64,000 nt of DNA. It comes from Erwinia sp. E_sp_B01_1. GTDB taxonomy: Bacteria > Pseudomonadota > Gammaproteobacteria > Enterobacterales > Enterobacteriaceae. Below the pieces are notes generated by a model. It saw nothing but the letters and a program-made list of their open reading frames with translations, was not told the origin of the DNA and made no database searches. Positions 18,783 through 26,103 of the stretch are shown piece after piece; position 1 is the first letter of the stretch, and every line of letters starts with the position of its first letter. The stretch is from contig NZ_CP142208.1 of the NCBI RefSeq assembly GCF_036865545.1, positions 1,984,001 to 2,048,000 of the forward strand, given 5' to 3'. The position numbers and the translations under genes are program-made.

Positions 18783-19538
18783 ATGAAAGTGCTTAACAAG
18801 CTCTCTGTAGTTCTTTTGCTTTCCGGTGGCGCGCTGTGTCAGCAAGCTCTGGCTGATAACAACGTCTTTACGGTCATGGATGACCCTTCCACAGCGAAGA
18901 AAGATTTTGAAGGGAATGCCGCCGCGGGTTACCTGGCTCAGACCGGTAACACCACCAGCTCCTCACTGACAGCTAATACCAACATGACCTGGTATCAGCC
19001 TAAAACGGCCTACAGCCTGTGGGGCAACGCCAGCAACACCTCTTCTAATGACGAACGCTCATCAGAAACCTATCAGGTCGGTGGCCGTACGCGTTACAAC
19101 CTCACCAACTTTGATTACCTGTTTGGACAGGCGAGCTGGTTGAGTGACCGTTTCAACGGTTATGACGGTCGTTCCTTCCTGGCCGCAGGTTATGGTCGTC
19201 AGCTGCTGAACGGTCCGGTGCATTCACTGCGTGTGGAAGCCGGTCCTGGTGTGCGTTATGACGATTATCACGACGGTGGCCATGATACCACTGCGCTGGC
19301 CTATGGCGCGCTGAGCTATCAGTGGCAGCTGACCGATACCACCAAATTCATACAGGGTGTATCCGTTCTGGGTAGCGATGATACGACAGTGAACTCCGAA
19401 ACCGGTTTACAGGTCGCCATTAACGATCACTTCTCTCTGAAGCTGGCCTATAACGTGACCTGGAACCAGAATCCGCCAGAATCTGCGCCAGATAAAACTG
19501 ATACTAAAACAACTATTATGCTTTCTTACGCAATGTAA
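18783..19538 (+). CDS. ydiY: YdiY, DUF481 outer-membrane-type protein
   Basis: This is a 251-residue secreted protein of the YdiY/DUF481 family. It has a signal peptide (cleavage near ALA-DN, residue 25) and a mature part with alternating hydrophobic strands ending in SYAM, consistent with an outer-membrane beta-barrel. GNAAAGYLAQTGNTTSSS is the usual family start. In E. coli the gene reportedly responds to acid; its function is unknown. In E. coli ydiY is close to thrS, but here a 6-kb export island lies between them. A terminator directly follows. Confidence 0.9.
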   Translation: MKVLNKLSVVLLLSGGALCQQALADNNVFTVMDDPSTAKKDFEGNAAAGYLAQTGNTTSSSLTANTNMTWYQPKTAYSLWGNASNTSSNDERSSETYQVGGRTRYNLTNFDYLFGQASWLSDRFNGYDGRSFLAAGYGRQLLNGPVHSLRVEAGPGVRYDDYHDGGHDTTALAYGALSYQWQLTDTTKFIQGVSVLGSDDTTVNSETGLQVAINDHFSLKLAYNVTWNQNPPESAPDKTDTKTTIMLSYAM

Positions 19539-19545
19539 TGTTTTC

Positions 19546-19573
19546 AGGGTCAGAATATTCTGACCCTAATTTT
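19546..19573 (+). terminator. Terminator of ydiY
   Basis: AGGGTCAGA and TCTGACCCT form a perfect 9-bp stem around ATAT, followed by AATTTTA. It isolates ydiY from the island that follows. Confidence 0.8.
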
Positions 19574-19793
19574 ACTTAATCCCTTTTCGCATCGCAAAAC
19601 CCCTTCTTTTACTCCTAAATTCCAGTCATTAATCAGAAAATATATTAGAACTTTTCCTAATCCAGGATGCAGATAATTTAACTTGTCATATTACCTGATG
19701 GCGGTTAAATTTCTCACCGACATTGCAACTGAATTATAGGATTCAGTAATGAATTCATTAATTTCAGTATTAAGCCAAATGTTGCTATTAATG

Positions 19794-19803
19794 TAATGAT
19801 AAT
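19794..19803 (+). promoter_or_regulatory. Partial Fur-like half-site before the microcin-like gene
   Basis: TAATGATAAT matches ten consecutive positions of the Fur consensus, but the right half is not conserved (11 of 19 in all). It lies 28 bp before the precursor ATG in AT-rich DNA, so chance is a real possibility. Several known class II microcins are iron-regulated, which is why it is noted. Confidence 0.25.
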
Positions 19804-19831
19804 GTCTTAAATTTATTAATGGAGTAATAAA

Positions 19832-20050
19832 ATGACTAACTTAACGGTAATGACTCTGGAGCAGTGTAAAGAAGTTCGCGGTGGCGTGAGCGATACCGCC
19901 TGGGGCGCAGCGGGTGGCGCTGTTGCTGGCGGCATTATTGGTGCTCTGATCCCCGGCGTGGGCTGCATTGCAGGGGCGATGGCAGGTGGCGCTGTGGGTG
20001 CCGGAGTAGGCGCCAGTGTAGGTGCAGGTAAAGGCAATGGAGCCTCATAA
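19832..20050 (+). CDS. Double-glycine-leader microcin-like precursor peptide
   Basis: This is a 72-residue precursor. Residues 1-18 form a leader ending in a double glycine (MTLEQCKEVRGG), with Val at -4, Leu at -10 and Met at -12 as in class II microcin leaders. Position -7 is Cys and -8 is Gln instead of the usual Leu and Glu. The predicted 54-residue core starts VSDTAWGAAGG and is almost entirely Gly, Ala, Val and Ile in GxxxG/AxxxG repeats, with one Cys in GVGCIAG and a polar tail AGKGNGAS. That is a membrane-inserting glycine-zipper pattern like colicin V and class IIb bacteriocins. GGAG sits seven bases before the ATG. The exporter genes follow. I do not recognise this particular peptide. 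No immunity gene is adjacent. Confidence 0.8.
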   Translation: MTNLTVMTLEQCKEVRGGVSDTAWGAAGGAVAGGIIGALIPGVGCIAGAMAGGAVGAGVGASVGAGKGNGAS

Positions 20051-20165
20051 TAACTCTTTCTGATAAGGACTACAGAAAAGGGTATTAATTACTATTGATA
20101 GTATGCTCTGACTGTTTCCAGATTGGATGGGGTTTTCATTACCTGATATATATGAAATAACCCTT

Positions 20166-20197
20166 TAGTGGAGTTGAGGCCAGCCTCAACTCCACTA
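20166..20197 (+). terminator. Perfect 14-bp hairpin between precursor and exporter genes
   Basis: TAGTGGAGTTGAGG (20166-20179) is followed by a CCAG loop and its exact reverse complement (20184-20197). No T tract follows, so it may be a partial terminator or an mRNA 3'-end stabiliser that raises the precursor:exporter ratio. It ends 16 bp before the adaptor ATG, where no strong Shine-Dalgarno is visible, so an effect on translation is also possible. Confidence 0.6.
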
Positions 20198-20213
20198 TGT
20201 AATGTGAAATATT

Positions 20214-21431
20214 ATGAGCAAAGAATTCAATAAATGCCTGATAAAATCCCCCCTGGGTATGCAGGTTTATGCCTCAGTATTACTTTTTTTTACTGTGATT
20301 TTTATCCTCATACTTACCCAGGGAAGATACGGCAAGCAGGAGATGGTTAAAGGTCTTATCCGAAATGAATCATTTTTCCGGGTTGCTGCTGACAGAATGG
20401 GGAACGTGCTGGATATATACGCTGAAGAGGGGCAGGCCGTTAAAAAGGGAGCGCCTCTTTTCCGCATAGCGCTTCCCTGGCAGGATGCCACGGATCAACA
20501 TAACGGCACCAGTATGACAAAAGAGTCCATTTCAAGGCTCAGGCAAACCCAGTCTGAATTACAGCGTGAAGGTCTCTCGCTCGAAAAAGAACTGGCTGAT
20601 TTAATCAAACAAAAAACCGCTTTCTTCAGTAGCATCGATCAAAATATCAGTAAAATAGATGGCATCGAAAAAGATTATCTGCTTAAGAAAAAAATCCTGG
20701 CTACTCAGCTTAAGGATTATGAAAAACTGCTGCTTTCAAAATCGATAAATAAAACAGATGTGGAAAATGTGCGGCAGTATTCCCTGGATAACAATGTTGC
20801 TTTAACCAGGACGGTGATGGAAAAGCAAAATTTGCTGCAGAACAAAGCAGAGAAGCAGATCTCCTATGCCAGAACTGAACGCGAACTGCTGCAAATAAGA
20901 GATGACGTTGAAAGAAGAAAGCGTGAGCTGATTAACGACCTGAATAAAATAGAGATGCAACAGGAATATATCGTGACCTCTCCCGTTGATGGCATTATCC
21001 ATGATGTCGGGATCCTTAAAGGCGATTTTGTCGATGGCAAATCTCCTTCTATGATTGTCAAAACAGATACTCAGGCTCAGCCTCTTGCCATCCTGCATCT
21101 GACCAGCAGTCAGATCGGCTTGCTCGATCGTCATGAAAAAATTTTCCTGCGGGTCGACACCTTTCCCTATGAGAGTTACGGCATGTTGACGGCCCACGTT
21201 GTGAATGTCTCCAAAACGCCCACCAAAGTCAGTCTGGATGACAAGGATTCCTGGTTCAGGGTCAAGCTCCAGCTGGATGAGCATGATGCATTGAGCAAGA
21301 TCCCGCTGGACAGGCTCAATGACGGGATGTCCGTGACCACCTCTTTGCGTCAGCCTGAACAAACTCTGATGGAATGGCTGTTCTTACCTGTGAAAAAAGC
21401 GTTTAAACGTAATCCGGATTTCATTCAATGA
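20214..21431 (+). CDS. HlyD/CvaA-family membrane fusion protein
   Basis: This is the periplasmic adaptor of a type I peptide export system, joining the inner-membrane ABC exporter to the outer-membrane channel. The 405 residues hold a short cytoplasmic N-terminus, one membrane segment (about residues 17-37), a biotinyl-lipoyl-like half (GNVLDIYAEEGQAVKKG), a long coiled coil (about 95-250, rich in Lys, Glu, Leu) and a second lipoyl half (VTSPVDGIIHDVGILKGDFV). The C-terminal beta domain ends near residue 390. It resembles CvaA of the colicin V system in size and layout. Its stop overlaps the next ATG by four bases (ATGA). Codon use is AT-richer than in flanking genes. Confidence 0.9.
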   Translation: MSKEFNKCLIKSPLGMQVYASVLLFFTVIFILILTQGRYGKQEMVKGLIRNESFFRVAADRMGNVLDIYAEEGQAVKKGAPLFRIALPWQDATDQHNGTSMTKESISRLRQTQSELQREGLSLEKELADLIKQKTAFFSSIDQNISKIDGIEKDYLLKKKILATQLKDYEKLLLSKSINKTDVENVRQYSLDNNVALTRTVMEKQNLLQNKAEKQISYARTERELLQIRDDVERRKRELINDLNKIEMQQEYIVTSPVDGIIHDVGILKGDFVDGKSPSMIVKTDTQAQPLAILHLTSSQIGLLDRHEKIFLRVDTFPYESYGMLTAHVVNVSKTPTKVSLDDKDSWFRVKLQLDEHDALSKIPLDRLNDGMSVTTSLRQPEQTLMEWLFLPVKKAFKRNPDFIQ

Positions 21432-23530
21432 AGAAATATAAAACAAAAGACGTTATTCAGGATGAAGTCTCTGAATGTGGCCTGGCTTGTATCAGCTATA
21501 TTTGCGGAACTCTAGGAAAAAAGGTCGCTTTGTCAACGCTGCGCAGACAGTTTGATGTCACTCTGGATGGCCTCTCCTTTTACAACCTGATGAATATCTC
21601 TGCGGAGTATCAACTTGTTGCAACGGGTGTTCAGGTTGCTGCTGATTCACTTTCCGAAATTAAAACGCCAGCTATCCTGCTCTGGAATAACTGCCATTTT
21701 GTTGTTCTAAAGAAGGTAAGCAGGAAAGGCATTGAGGTAATGGATCCTGCCGTAGGTAGTCGAAAATTTACCCATCTGGAAGTGTTGCGATTTTTCTCCG
21801 GCATGGCTCTGGAGATTGAGCCTGGTGATGAGTTCACGGTCAGACCTCATCAGATCTGGGGCGATGAATCTAAAGAGGACAAAAGTTTCTTCAGCCTCAG
21901 GTCATTTAAAAACGGTGTTCTGAAATATAAAGGCTACATGTTACCTCTGGCAATAATGGGCATCGTTATTCAGGTAACCAACATTGCCATACCGAAGTTT
22001 ATGTCATTGGTGTTTGACGAAGTTTTGCCAAAAAACGATGAGGACTTTCTGTTTCTATTGCTTTACATATTTGGGTTTGTCTATCTGGTTCAGGCGGTAG
22101 GCAGCTATCTGAAAATTTTGCTTTCACAACGCTTAAGGCGAGTTATTTCGCAGTTTGAAGGTGTCAAAACGGTCCGCAAGCTGTTCCAGATGGACCTGAA
22201 ATTTTTCAACAAAAGAATGCCCTCTGACCTGTTGAGAAAAGTGAAATCCGTTGATGTATTCCATGTCATTTTTACGCATGGCTGGCTGGATATCGTCATT
22301 GATGGGTTTTTTGCCGTCATCTTTATTGTGTTGCTCTTTATGATCAGTTTTGAACTGGCCTTAATGACGGTCACGGTCACCGGACTGATGGTTCTGACGC
22401 GTGTGTTGTTGCTTTCAACCCTGATGTCCCGTCAATACTCTGCTATTGATGCTGAAGTAAAGCGTGATAACAGCCTGCTTCAGTCGATTGATAATATCAC
22501 GATGATAAAGATCAACCATGCGGAGCCACGCAAGATAAGCGACTGGTTTTACAGTCATGCTGAACTTGAAGATAATCGTTCTTCCATTGAAAAAATCAAC
22601 GCCATGATTTCGCTTTCAGTGACCACGATTTCACATCTTCAGACGCTGATTATTATGGGAATGGGTGCCTATGCCGTACTGAAAGGGGAAAGCACCGCCG
22701 GTCAGCTCATCTCCTTTATCTTTTACAAAAACTGTTTGATGGGTAATGTTCAGACGCTGGTTGAAAATCATGTCAATTTAAAGCTTTGCTCGGTTGAGGT
22801 TCGCAGACTGCTGGATATCTCACCGGCGAATGTGACGGAAGTCAGCCAGTTCAGTTCCTCTGCGGTCACCACAAAAGAACAAATAAAAACGCTATCCGTA
22901 AAGAATCTGGCCTTCAGCTATTCGAACTTAGAAGAATCTTTTATAAAAAATATCAACTTCACCCTGAATGAGGGCGATAAGTTGGTGATAACTGGCCCAT
23001 CAGGCTGCGGTAAAACCACCATTCTGAATTTGCTGTCAGGATTACTGAGCCCAACAGAAGGTGAGATCATTATCAATGACATCTCCCTGAACCGATTCGG
23101 GTTACGTCAGTATCAGTCGCAAATTTCCATTGTCTCTCCTGATGACAAAATCATTAATGGAAGCGTCATTGAGAACATCGTCTATGAATCCGATTCTTAC
23201 GATATGCTTCTGCTCGGGCAGTGTATTGAACAAGCCAATCTCGCCGATGTCATCCGCAGTTTGTCTGCAGGTTTAAATACGCGACTAGGCATTAATGGTG
23301 CAAGGCTCTCCTCAGGTCAGCAGCAAAGACTGATGCTGGCCAGGGCACTGTATCGCAGGCCAACCCTGATTTTGATGGATGAACCTACATCTCACCTCGA
23401 TAAGCTGTCACGGGAAGCCATTATGGAGTTGGTGGCGCAGCTCCCTGTTTCCTGCATCATTGTCAGTCATGACGAACATCTGATTAAAGCAATAGGCAAT
23501 GAAATTCAGATGAGTGGGGGAGTTAAATAG
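21428..23530 (+). CDS. Peptidase-containing ABC exporter (C39, CvaB-like)
   Basis: This inner-membrane exporter cleaves double-glycine leaders and transports the mature peptide. It has 700 residues. The C39 peptidase domain (1-135) has Cys17 in SECGLAC with Gln11 before it, His90 in NNCHFVVL and Asp106 in VMDPAVG, so the catalytic set is complete. Six membrane segments span about 170-440. The nucleotide-binding domain has Walker A GPSGCGKTT (523-531), signature LSSGQQQ (627-633) and Walker B LILMDEP (647-653). This pairing with a double-glycine precursor fixes the export route. It sits between the adaptor and the acyltransferase-like gene in one operon. Confidence 0.95.
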   Translation: MKKYKTKDVIQDEVSECGLACISYICGTLGKKVALSTLRRQFDVTLDGLSFYNLMNISAEYQLVATGVQVAADSLSEIKTPAILLWNNCHFVVLKKVSRKGIEVMDPAVGSRKFTHLEVLRFFSGMALEIEPGDEFTVRPHQIWGDESKEDKSFFSLRSFKNGVLKYKGYMLPLAIMGIVIQVTNIAIPKFMSLVFDEVLPKNDEDFLFLLLYIFGFVYLVQAVGSYLKILLSQRLRRVISQFEGVKTVRKLFQMDLKFFNKRMPSDLLRKVKSVDVFHVIFTHGWLDIVIDGFFAVIFIVLLFMISFELALMTVTVTGLMVLTRVLLLSTLMSRQYSAIDAEVKRDNSLLQSIDNITMIKINHAEPRKISDWFYSHAELEDNRSSIEKINAMISLSVTTISHLQTLIIMGMGAYAVLKGESTAGQLISFIFYKNCLMGNVQTLVENHVNLKLCSVEVRRLLDISPANVTEVSQFSSSAVTTKEQIKTLSVKNLAFSYSNLEESFIKNINFTLNEGDKLVITGPSGCGKTTILNLLSGLLSPTEGEIIINDISLNRFGLRQYQSQISIVSPDDKIINGSVIENIVYESDSYDMLLLGQCIEQANLADVIRSLSAGLNTRLGINGARLSSGQQQRLMLARALYRRPTLILMDEPTSHLDKLSREAIMELVAQLPVSCIIVSHDEHLIKAIGNEIQMSGGVK

Positions 23531-23531
23531 G

Positions 23532-23660
23532 ATGAAACTTCGAACCTTGTTAAAAGTCAGGCTAAATAATTTCATTGATCAGATTATTTCATCGCTGATA
23601 ATTATCCAGGTCAGGCTTTCGGGGGGTGCCCAAATTTACCTTGTGCAATCAAGTTTTTGA
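23532..23660 (+). CDS. 42-residue ORF, probable 5' part of the acyltransferase-like gene
   Basis: A frame starting one base after the exporter stop (TAGG-ATG) with GGGGAG upstream encodes 42 residues rich in Leu, Ile and Val with basic ends. Its TGA overlaps the TTG start of the next gene (TTTTTGA). If one T is added to the T5 run at 23654-23658, or a ribosome slips back one base there, the frame continues without a break into the acyltransferase-like protein, giving 340 residues. The downstream ORF alone lacks about 43 residues before its HTGDYW motif compared with LpxL, which fits. It could instead be an independent small membrane peptide, for example an immunity protein, but that is less likely. 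Confidence 0.5.
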   Translation: MKLRTLLKVRLNNFIDQIISSLIIIQVRLSGGAQIYLVQSSF

Positions 23661-24553
23661 AACTTATTTCATTTGTTTTTCGATCACATTTAAGGGAAAG
23701 TTATTATGCAGACGCTGCTGAGTTTTTGACAAACAAGGTTTTGGATGTCAGACAAAAAGATTTCGTAAAATTCTATTTGCAAAATAAATTAACGAGCCTT
23801 TTTGTTCGTACTTACCTCGAACGCTCACTTTGGCCAGAAGTCGCATGCTTTCTGCAGAGTAACAGCCGCCTCAGCACTGCTTCAAAAGCAATTGATAACT
23901 CAAATATGCTGCTGGTCACGCACACCGGTGATTACTGGGTCGCTATCCTCACTGCTGCGATGCAGTATGAGGGTAAAGGCTGTAATTTTATTGTTCCCAT
24001 CTATGAGAAAATTGAGGAAAAGAATAAGGCACTTTACAAAAAAATAGAGATAAAGGGAGTTAACCTTATTTTCGTTAATATTCATGAGCCAGGTACGCTG
24101 CTGAGACTCACCCGTTATCTTAAAGCGCCTGATTGTGTGGTGGCGATTTTTTACGATCTCTATTGCCACGCTGCTGGTATTTATAATGGCGGCGTTGAAG
24201 CGGTGAATTTTGCAAATAAAAAGGGGTTTATGACCACAGGTATTCTCCAAATCATCAGAAAGTTATCGTTAAAGGTAAGTTTTGTAGCCTGCGAGTTTTG
24301 CTTACAGGAGAATAAATATATCGTTGAGTTTTCACCCATGCCACAACATGCTGCAGAACAGGATTTGCGCCGTGAAATGGTGGATTATATTGAAGCGCGT
24401 CTTAAAGTCAGGCCTTACCAGTGGCACTTCATTGCTAATCTGGATACCTATTACCATATTCCTTTCTCGCGTATTCAGGCAGTTTACAAAAAGAATCAGG
24501 CGCAGTTTCTTCGCCTTAATGCTAAATATTCCCATGCCAGTAAAAAATCATGA
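23657..24553 (+). CDS. LpxL/HtrB-like (LPLAT-superfamily) acyltransferase-like protein
   Basis: This is a 298-residue protein, as read from TTG at 23657. Its layout recalls lipid A late acyltransferases: LLVTHTGDYWVAILTA (His89) at the HX4(D/E) site, FYDLYCHAAG (Asp167) at the substrate-pocket region, TTGILQIIRKLSLKVSFVA, and a C-terminal IEARLKVRPYQWHF like the PEQYxW box. The acidic residue of HX4(D/E) is Trp94 here, so canonical catalysis is doubtful unless Asp92 substitutes. The 5' end is split (see 23532). Its place between exporter and channel suggests lipid modification of the peptide or self-protection of the envelope; this is inference. Its stop overlaps the next ATG (ATGA). Confidence 0.55.
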   Translation: MKLISFVFRSHLRESYYADAAEFLTNKVLDVRQKDFVKFYLQNKLTSLFVRTYLERSLWPEVACFLQSNSRLSTASKAIDNSNMLLVTHTGDYWVAILTAAMQYEGKGCNFIVPIYEKIEEKNKALYKKIEIKGVNLIFVNIHEPGTLLRLTRYLKAPDCVVAIFYDLYCHAAGIYNGGVEAVNFANKKGFMTTGILQIIRKLSLKVSFVACEFCLQENKYIVEFSPMPQHAAEQDLRREMVDYIEARLKVRPYQWHFIANLDTYYHIPFSRIQAVYKKNQAQFLRLNAKYSHASKKS

Positions 24554-25932
24554 TAAAGAACATTCCACTCTTTATTTTTTCCGTCGTGCTCTCTGGCTGT
24601 TCACTTTCACCTGACTATGTGAAACCTGACACGGTTGCAGACGGTAATAAGCAACTTAAAGCAGCACAAGGCAGTCATCACTATTCCTTCCGCGAAATGT
24701 TCGCTCAGGACGAACATCTGGCAGAAGTTCTGAAACAGGCTCAAATTAATAACTACGATTTACAGGATGGCCTGATGCGTGTAGAGATGAGCCGTGCACA
24801 AATGTACAGCTCAATCTTTGACCTGATACCCGGCGTGAGCTTCACAGGCACTAAAAGCACCAGCATGTCTGAAATGACGTCCCCCTTTACGGGCAAGGAT
24901 GTGAAGCAAAAAACTAAAACATACCAAAGCAGCCTGGGCTTTGATTCTTATGAAGTGGATATCTGGGGGAAAAAATTAAGCGAAATTGATTCACTGAGTG
25001 AAGAGAGCAAAGGGGATCAGAGCCTGGTTGCCGCTCTGCAGTTAACATTAATGTCCGATCTTGCCAATACCTGGTATGAAACCCTGTCGATGATAAAAAT
25101 CTGGCATATGCTGACCGGAAAAATTGTCATGCTGGATGACATTCATACCCGTCTGAAAGGCGTGAACGAAATGGAAAGGCTGGATCCGCTGCTGCTCTCC
25201 AAGTTTATGCGGGGCAAAACCAGTGATGTCACTAACCAGCAAAACCTGCAGAAAGAGATCCTCAACAGGATCCATAAGCTGGAATATCTTTCCGGATACC
25301 GATCCCCCTGGCTGAATGAAGAGAGCTGGAAAAATCTTTCCGGGGACTATGCCATTCAGACGGTTCCACAAAGTATCCAGTCTGATGTCATTTTCAACCG
25401 GCCTGATGTGATAGCCGCAGAAGCTAAAATTAAAGCGGCAAATGGCACTATTGGTATGGCGCGCGCCGCGTTTTTACCTGTATTTAATCTGTTTGCTAAT
25501 GCCTATCACACCTCTGACTCTTTCGATCGTGTTCTTGGCAATTTGACCGATAACTGGACCTTAACGCCGTCGGTGATTATCCCCATTTTTCGTTGGCCAA
25601 AAAATTACGCCAATCTGAATTATGCGCATTCACAACAGGCACTGGCGGTAGTTGCCTACCGCAAGATCGTGGCTCAGGGGTTGCTGGATATTCAGGACTC
25701 AACCAATAATCTGCGTGCCAGTGAAGAGACAACGGCCACGTTAATGGACGAAGTTGATATTCACCGACAAAATCTGAGCAAACTGACCACACGTTACGAA
25801 GCCGGGTATGGTGACTTATACAACCTCTATGAGGCGATCGACTTACTGACTTCGTCGCAATTTGATCTTGAAAGTCACCGGCAACAGGTGATGACCAATA
25901 CGATTGTGTTACTTAAAGCCATTGGGGGATGA
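24550..25932 (+). CDS. TolC/OprM-like outer-membrane efflux lipoprotein
   Basis: This is the outer-membrane channel of the export system. The 460 residues start with a lipoprotein signal: lipobox VVLSGC, with acylated Cys17 followed by Ser, which predicts outer-membrane sorting. LSPDYVKPD after it is typical of the NodT/OprM branch. Two OEP repeats follow, with DSYEVDIWGKK in the first half and FNRPDVIAAEAKIKAANGTIGMARAAFLP in the second; LTTRYEAGYGDLYNLYEA is near the end. Carrying its own channel distinguishes this cluster from colicin V-type systems, which use the host TolC. It is the last gene of the island; thrS follows after 269 bp. Confidence 0.9.
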   Translation: MIKNIPLFIFSVVLSGCSLSPDYVKPDTVADGNKQLKAAQGSHHYSFREMFAQDEHLAEVLKQAQINNYDLQDGLMRVEMSRAQMYSSIFDLIPGVSFTGTKSTSMSEMTSPFTGKDVKQKTKTYQSSLGFDSYEVDIWGKKLSEIDSLSEESKGDQSLVAALQLTLMSDLANTWYETLSMIKIWHMLTGKIVMLDDIHTRLKGVNEMERLDPLLLSKFMRGKTSDVTNQQNLQKEILNRIHKLEYLSGYRSPWLNEESWKNLSGDYAIQTVPQSIQSDVIFNRPDVIAAEAKIKAANGTIGMARAAFLPVFNLFANAYHTSDSFDRVLGNLTDNWTLTPSVIIPIFRWPKNYANLNYAHSQQALAVVAYRKIVAQGLLDIQDSTNNLRASEETTATLMDEVDIHRQNLSKLTTRYEAGYGDLYNLYEAIDLLTSSQFDLESHRQQVMTNTIVLLKAIGG

Positions 25933-26103
25933 GTGATAAATACTTCACTCCGGACCCTTCATTTCTGGAAACCAGATTACAACTCCTTCTGATGAGGCTT
26001 TGATGAAGAGCCCATTGCGTGTAAGATGTTCGGCCATCGTAAGTTTTTGTATCAAACAGACTTTCGATCCTGCGTACCAGGCTGTGTACCAAACTGACAA
26101 CTG

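Follow-up and report, generated by a model that had tools for sequence, protein, structure and literature searches.

Here, we describe a peptide-export island in a stretch of 64,000 nucleotides from Erwinia sp. E_sp_B01_1 (contig NZ_CP142208.1, positions 1,984,001 to 2,048,000), hereafter called the window, which lies within one 4.8-Mb contig. The island comprises five genes on the plus strand (window positions 19832-25932), which encode a double-glycine precursor peptide, an HlyD-type periplasmic adaptor, a peptidase C39-ABC (ATP-binding cassette) exporter, an acyltransferase-like protein of the LPLAT superfamily and an outer-membrane channel. The gene set and its order, the leader of the peptide, the C39 catalytic residues, a lipoprotein signal and signs of transfer are all directly visible. 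On balance, we favor the view that the island is a rare, transferred and self-contained class II microcin-like system in which the LPLAT-like protein would serve as lipidator or protector.

Gene organization of the island

The gene to the left of the island matches the DUF481 family of Pfam, and we take it to be ydiY; on the right lies thrS (TIGR00418, 814 bits, cut-off 384). An earlier note on this DNA had placed the island between these same two genes, which the matches confirm. The precursor gene (19832..20050, 72 residues) is followed, after a gap of 163 bases, by the genes of the adaptor (20214..21431, 405 residues) and the exporter (21428..23530, 700 residues). One base past the exporter stop, an ATG at 23532 behind the ribosome-site-like sequence GGGGGAG opens 42 codons only (23532..23660). 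The frame that matches the related LPLAT-like proteins is a different one; its TTG start overlaps the stop codon of the 42-codon frame, and it comprises 298 codons (23657..24553). The channel gene (24550..25932, 460 residues) completes the set. The five genes in one direction described in the earlier note are thus found, except that the acyltransferase-like gene is divided between two frames. Four-base overlaps join the adaptor and exporter frames as well as the LPLAT and channel frames, but the tight spacing claimed for the whole set does not extend to the precursor-adaptor gap, and the one-base gap behind the exporter leads to the short frame. No candidate for a small immunity gene was recognised between the island genes in the list of open frames, which small genes could escape. 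No Rfam family was found at gathering level, and sigma-70-like sites were not enriched (12 versus 11.7 in shuffles).

The precursor peptide

The precursor consists of an 18-residue leader ending in Gly-Gly and a 54-residue glycine-rich core, and reaches 29.0 bits with Bacteriocin_IIc (PF10439, cut-off 27.1). In an alignment with seven related precursors from islands and plasmids, the Gly-Gly and a cysteine at position -7 are invariant in all eight sequences. Class II microcin leaders are described in the main text of PMC11494933 as 15-18 residues long, ending in GG or GA and hydrophobic at -4, -7 and -12. The window leader carries Val, Cys and Met at these positions and fits the rule if Cys is counted as hydrophobic. 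Glycine makes up 20 of the 72 residues (28%), slightly above the 12-26% given in the same text for class II precursors. The unmodified window core has a calculated mass of 4,438 Da. In the four Erwinia islands, the core comprises 46-54 residues, one-third of them glycine, with a grand average of hydropathy of 0.67-0.98, and this hydrophobicity suggests that the core may insert into membranes. A lysine close to the C-terminus is present in all five island precursors, and the core encoded on Escherichia coli plasmids has none.

For the stretch 20040-20215, which includes the gap behind the precursor gene, none of 200 shuffles folds as well (z -4.7). It contains a perfect 15-bp inverted repeat with a loop of 2 on the plus strand (20166..20197), between the precursor and adaptor genes. 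Since no T run follows, we read this hairpin as a possible attenuator or processing site, which would allow an excess of precursor over pump.

Exporter, adaptor and channel

The exporter matches PF03412, PF00664 and PF00005, all above cut-off. The residues Q11, C17, H90 and D106, which we take to be those of C39 catalysis, are kept in all seven aligned related exporters, so that cutting of the leader is expected. With TIGR03796, a model for NHLP bacteriocin export, the exporter scores 366.9 bits and does not reach the cut-off of 853.3. Matches from PADLOC were set aside as generic, as they involve only models of the ATPase domain. In a profile search of a family draw of 392 genomes, restricted to the two best candidates per genome, the window exporter scored 1206 bits and that of genome G1456, from another genus, 995 bits, whereas all other matches stayed at or below 490.

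The adaptor is assigned by PF13437 (HlyD_3, 38.2 bits); with TIGR01843 it scores 72.9 bits, below the cut-off of 208.65. The channel protein exceeds the cut-off of PF02321 (OEP, 82.8 bits), and its top model, TIGR01845 (NodT-type), gives 188.4 bits, below the cut-off of 210.05. The lipoprotein signal LSGC occurs in all four Erwinia copies, and a channel gene is present in all five islands. We infer that this channel works with this exporter. With a channel of its own, the set could be transferred without depending on the TolC of the host, and the scattered distribution described below is consistent with this. Taken together, export of the peptide is highly probable.

Signs of horizontal acquisition and occurrence in Erwinia

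The segment 19540-25932 has a guanine-plus-cytosine (GC) content of 43.6%, compared with 51.7% for the whole window. The codons AGA, AGG and ATA make up 1.3-4.7% of all codons in the four large island genes and 0.2-0.5% in three neighboring genes. The AT-richness and the excess of these codons seen in the earlier note therefore hold for the segment and its four large genes, but not for the precursor gene, which has 60.3% GC and none of the three codons. Compared with the empty ydiY-thrS sites of five other Erwinia, similarity stops at 19538-19549, just after ydiY, and resumes at 25998-26017. This delimits a foreign segment without strand assignment at 19539..26012, slightly wider than the originally proposed extent of 19794..25932. 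Long direct repeats were not found at the island ends.

The distribution was surveyed in sets of genomes, plasmids and E. coli genomes. All 37 Erwinia genomes contain thrS, and 30 thrS loci were examined with short flanks. In 22 of these, a distance of 244-1210 bases separates ydiY and thrS (in two of them the flank includes ydiY only partly), and three hold the island, namely the window's own, G019 and G025. The remaining five lack ydiY in the flank; in longer stretches they show other genes, some phage-like by eye, or lie near a contig end. In a fourth Erwinia, G022, the ydiY-thrS site is empty, with a gap of 334 bases, and the island is located elsewhere in the genome. Strong relatives of the LPLAT-like protein occur in four of the 37 genomes (E <=2e-135), with three others weak, near 1e-6, and the same four give strong matches to the precursor family (E <=5.5e-22), with two others at 0.005-0.007. 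Named records carrying the same island are Erwinia phyllosphaerae CMYE1 and E. psidii IBSBF 435; in E. phyllosphaerae, about 8 kb of other genes lie downstream of it. The ydiY-thrS interval is also variable in other Erwinia (L070-L075), with phage-like or unrelated genes in several species. A near-identical match to the island DNA was not found in any phage record.

Among the four Erwinia islands, the exporters are 58-74%, the adaptors 51-68%, the channels 47-67%, the LPLAT-like proteins 37-46% and the cores 40-74% identical, while thrS and ydiY of the same genomes are 95-97% and 90-94% identical. Horizontal acquisition, already proposed in the earlier note, is well supported by composition, by the occurrence in four of 37 Erwinia rather than in every related genome, by different chromosomal places and by the presence in another genus.

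These data also bear on the nature of the peptide. It could be a signal, adhesion or surface-modifying peptide rather than a bacteriocin, given that double-glycine leaders and C39 exporters occur beyond bacteriocins, that no immunity gene was recognised and that the glycine-zipper matches would equally fit non-toxic membrane proteins. We consider this unlikely, as the precursor matches Bacteriocin_IIc and as a rare, mobile distribution with a fast-changing core fits antagonism better. That the peptide is antibacterial appears likely.

Occurrence beyond Erwinia

A search for the five-gene order, as suggested in the earlier note, found the same genes in the same order in four other genomes, three of Erwinia and one of another genus, so that the five genomes hold the set at no fewer than three chromosomal positions. 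In the other genus (G1456, L177), the complete island has other gene neighbors, and its adaptor, exporter, LPLAT-like protein and channel are 53%, 60%, 38% and 46% identical to those of the window.

Within a draw of 394 genomes from the order, LPLAT matches occurred in eight, of which only the window's own was strong. A scan of genome contigs with the window LPLAT alone gave 32 pattern hits and no relatives; with the LPLAT alignment it gave 14 pattern hits and two relatives, both among the known Erwinia. Weak matches (E 1e-11 to 1e-3) revealed no island in eight loci (L026-L028, L030-L034) and 29 more (L080-L108), a comparison that left 13 weak rows aside; in several of these loci, the LPLAT is of another group, encoded next to DUF4762 peptides.

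The gene neighbors of other C39 exporters were searched in flanks of about 1.5 kb on either side (shorter for L135 and L169), which gives little power to detect a channel gene. The 29 loci of a phylum draw contained no LPLAT and one channel match by profile search, and the 28 further loci of a family draw no LPLAT and one weak channel match. As two loci are shared, none of 55 distinct C39-exporter loci has an LPLAT neighbor in this range, in agreement with the earlier view that an acyltransferase together with a dedicated channel is unusual. C39 pieces and LPLAT genes do pair in loci found by other routes (L068, L009, L010).

Two of these are plasmid-borne. A four-gene version (precursor, adaptor, exporter, LPLAT) is present on E. 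coli plasmids (nine of ten matched plasmid records), and at least 80% of its length is covered in seven of 5426 E. coli genomes. One plasmid of Salmonella salamae carries the four-gene version with two precursors. No channel gene was recognised in the plasmid sets, which are annotated only as hypothetical, HlyD or C39 proteins or not at all. Another 21 E. coli genomes show a chromosomal match of 80-90% identity, and the eight rows listed cover the LPLAT part only. The one examined (L037:9006-9677) is an LPLAT-like gene without export genes, with 86.7% DNA identity to the plasmid gene, located near tRNA-Sec, an integrase gene and mobile-element fragments. For the LPLAT of L017, no plasmid record was found at 1e-5.

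The acyltransferase-like gene

In the four relatives, the LPLAT-like genes are single frames of 333-348 codons, two of them called from TTG with uncertain starts, and the 42 and 298 codons of the window consequently fit one split gene. Its position, the GGGGGAG and the total length mark the short frame as the probable gene start. Aligned with the four N-termini of the relatives, which are variable, the 42 residues gave scores that were reached by 986, 1456, 43 and 1991 of 2000 shuffles, so three of the four are not significant. The split may reflect a genuine break, an error in the assembly or coupled re-initiation, and the gene may accordingly be broken in the window strain or made as a shorter protein.

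That the island is decaying and its system no longer works in the window strain seems improbable to us. The two frames speak for it, as does another C39-exporter locus of the same genome that is also split, but the 298 codons that remain and the four other island genes form open frames, the overlap of the short-frame stop with the TTG would permit coupled re-initiation, and an error is possible in a single assembly. The same genome contains a second class II-like locus beside fimbria-like genes (L020:8406-12209, G000:C1 ~2360405-2364208), with a 126-residue precursor with a GA-type leader, an HlyD-type adaptor and a C39 exporter in two overlapping frames.

With PF03279 (Lip_A_acyltrans, cut-off 22.3), the LPLAT-like proteins of the window (17.0 bits) and of the Salmonella (13.1) and E. 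coli (19.1) plasmids stay below the cut-off, and those of the three intact Erwinia relatives lie above it (31.2, 22.6 and 23.8). The catalytic motif of the lipid A acyltransferase family is Hx4[DE], which is seen in the two of the genome's three PF03279 genes that were compared. All seven copies of the LPLAT-like protein instead carry HxG[DE]YW, with Trp aligned to the canonical acid and an acid at +3. Alignment with the genome's own LPLATs by hhalign was not significant (probability 2.7). A sequence search of the PDB gave no match for the window LPLAT and, for the alignment, only unrelated rows (E >=0.11). No match to the HlyC family of Pfam appeared up to E 0.5.

Possible roles in lipidation or self-protection

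LPLAT genes also stand near peptides in other loci. In genome G264 (L068:9408-19575), a double-glycine peptide, an LPLAT (PF03279, 33.2 bits) and C39-exporter pieces lie in a row with ketosynthase, MaoC-like and acyl-carrier genes assigned by Pfam and with pump-like and channel-like genes named by sequence reading. This is possibly a lipopeptide locus and only distantly related to the island (LPLAT 18% identical). In G132, of the same order (L069:5927-9015), two short peptides with the shared start MKNIDLEI..ELGPTMAK sit between a ketosynthase-like gene upstream and an LPLAT gene (PF03279, 62.6 bits) downstream. In L026:18-1911, a DUF4762 peptide, a DsbA-like and an LPLAT-like protein are encoded side by side; here the LPLAT assignment has no basis in Pfam and comes from a profile match of 1.3e-6 and 45% identity to that of L068. 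The DsbA-like and LPLAT-like genes likewise adjoin in L028, L031, L032 and L033 from other Erwinia and members of the family, the LPLAT-like proteins being 45-49% identical to that of L068. A literature search on DUF4762 found no paper.

LPLAT genes next to double-glycine peptides are the main, if circumstantial, support for peptide lipidation, by which the LPLAT-like protein would acylate the precursor at the N-terminal amine after cutting, at Ser/Thr or at the lysine close to the C-terminus; the product would be a lipidated ribosomal peptide. The acyl-chain genes of L068, the lysine shared by all five island precursors, the co-variation of LPLAT and precursor and the lack of a recognised immunity gene are in line with this. 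Since the canonical acid is missing, the E. coli plasmid core offers no lysine, L068 is distant and the known LPLAT enzymes act on lipids, we can advance modification of the peptide only tentatively.

Alternatively, the LPLAT-like protein could protect the producer, either by altering its lipids or by binding the peptide in the inner membrane as an immunity protein. It evolves fastest of the four large proteins and is always encoded by the last or next to last gene of the set, the altered motif suits binding rather than catalysis, and no other immunity candidate was recognised between the genes. This role is nevertheless somewhat doubtful: immunity to class II microcins is conferred by small membrane proteins, none of which is known to have an LPLAT fold, and with the frame break the producer would lack protection unless the shortened protein is functional. 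The fast change of the LPLAT-like protein and the lack of a recognised separate immunity gene suggest that it may be matched to the peptide, as modifier or as protector.

Proposed function

Several findings weigh against a microcin-like system with this composition. An immunity gene was not recognised, and the LPLAT gene is split in the window strain. Precursors of 72 residues in the window and 64-65 in three relatives fall below the 75-120 residues of verified class II precursors given in the main text of PMC9746304, and the three Erwinia relatives stay below the Bacteriocin_IIc cut-off (21.6, 18.9 and 12.0 bits), which only the window precursor passes. The canonical acid at +5 is missing in all seven LPLAT copies, so the LPLAT-like protein may not be an enzyme. 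Its structural model is weak (predicted local distance difference test score 58), and a Foldseek search with it found nothing below 1e-3; the best VIA rows for this model were LpxM and PatA.

With these reservations, a class II microcin-like system would operate as follows. The C39 domain of the exporter would bind the 18-residue leader of the precursor and cut after Gly-Gly, and the glycine-rich core would be pumped out through the exporter, the HlyD adaptor and the lipoprotein channel of the island. Outside, related bacteria would be the probable targets, the core inserting into their membranes. The LPLAT-like protein, presumably located in the inner membrane, would be the cognate partner of the peptide and would either fatty-acylate it before export or alter the lipids of the producer, which would then be spared.

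If the LPLAT-like protein modifies the peptide, lipidation by a lipid A-type acyltransferase would join the tailoring routes of ribosomal peptides; should it act as protector of the producer, it would represent a new principle of bacteriocin immunity. A more speculative and rather unlikely generalization takes LPLAT-type proteins as a new class of maturation enzymes that fatty-acylate double-glycine peptides of Gram-negative bacteria to lipidated microcins, the island being a compact form using ordinary acyl donors and L068-like loci making a dedicated acyl chain.

Comparison with known systems

Microcins have been screened in Pantoea, Erwinia and Xanthomonas (PMC13174018), in Serratia (PMC13101503) and by means of a language model (PMC11494933). 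The word "acyltransferase" is absent from the main texts of PMC9746304, PMC13174018, PMC11494933 and PMC10233263, and that of PMC13101503 mentions it once, for a toxin-activating lysine acyltransferase near Serratia microcins. In titles and abstract openings, no report of an LPLAT-type gene in a microcin operon was found; supplements, preprints and subscription papers lie outside this search, so the island precursors may stand in published candidate lists.

Genes of HlyC-type toxin-activating acyltransferases likewise stand in type I secretion loci, but the island protein would belong to a different fold family, LPLAT, and has no match to the HlyC family. From the lipid A secondary acyltransferases LpxL and LpxM and from mycobacterial PatA, the island LPLAT differs in having Trp in place of the acid at +5 from the motif His, with an acid at +3, and in being encoded within a peptide-export operon. 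The plasmid sets of E. coli and Salmonella (L010, L009) share the order of precursor or precursors, adaptor, exporter and LPLAT, the Cys at -7 and the HxG[DE]YW motif with the island, but lack a recognised channel gene, and their exporters and LPLAT-like proteins are only 33-36% and 21-23% identical to those of the island; the Salmonella set has two precursors.

According to the main texts of PMC9746304 and PMC10233263, class II microcin systems consist of a precursor, an immunity protein, a C39 exporter, an adaptor and the chromosomal TolC. As in microcin V (CvaC, Cvi, CvaA, CvaB and host TolC), the island combines a double-glycine leader and a glycine-rich core with an adjacent C39 exporter and HlyD-type adaptor. 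It differs from the microcin V type by its shorter precursor and the lack of a recognised immunity gene, by an exporter that forms a clade of its own far from all others scored, by the LPLAT-like gene and by encoding a probable NodT-type channel of its own, where the microcin V type relies on the chromosomal TolC.

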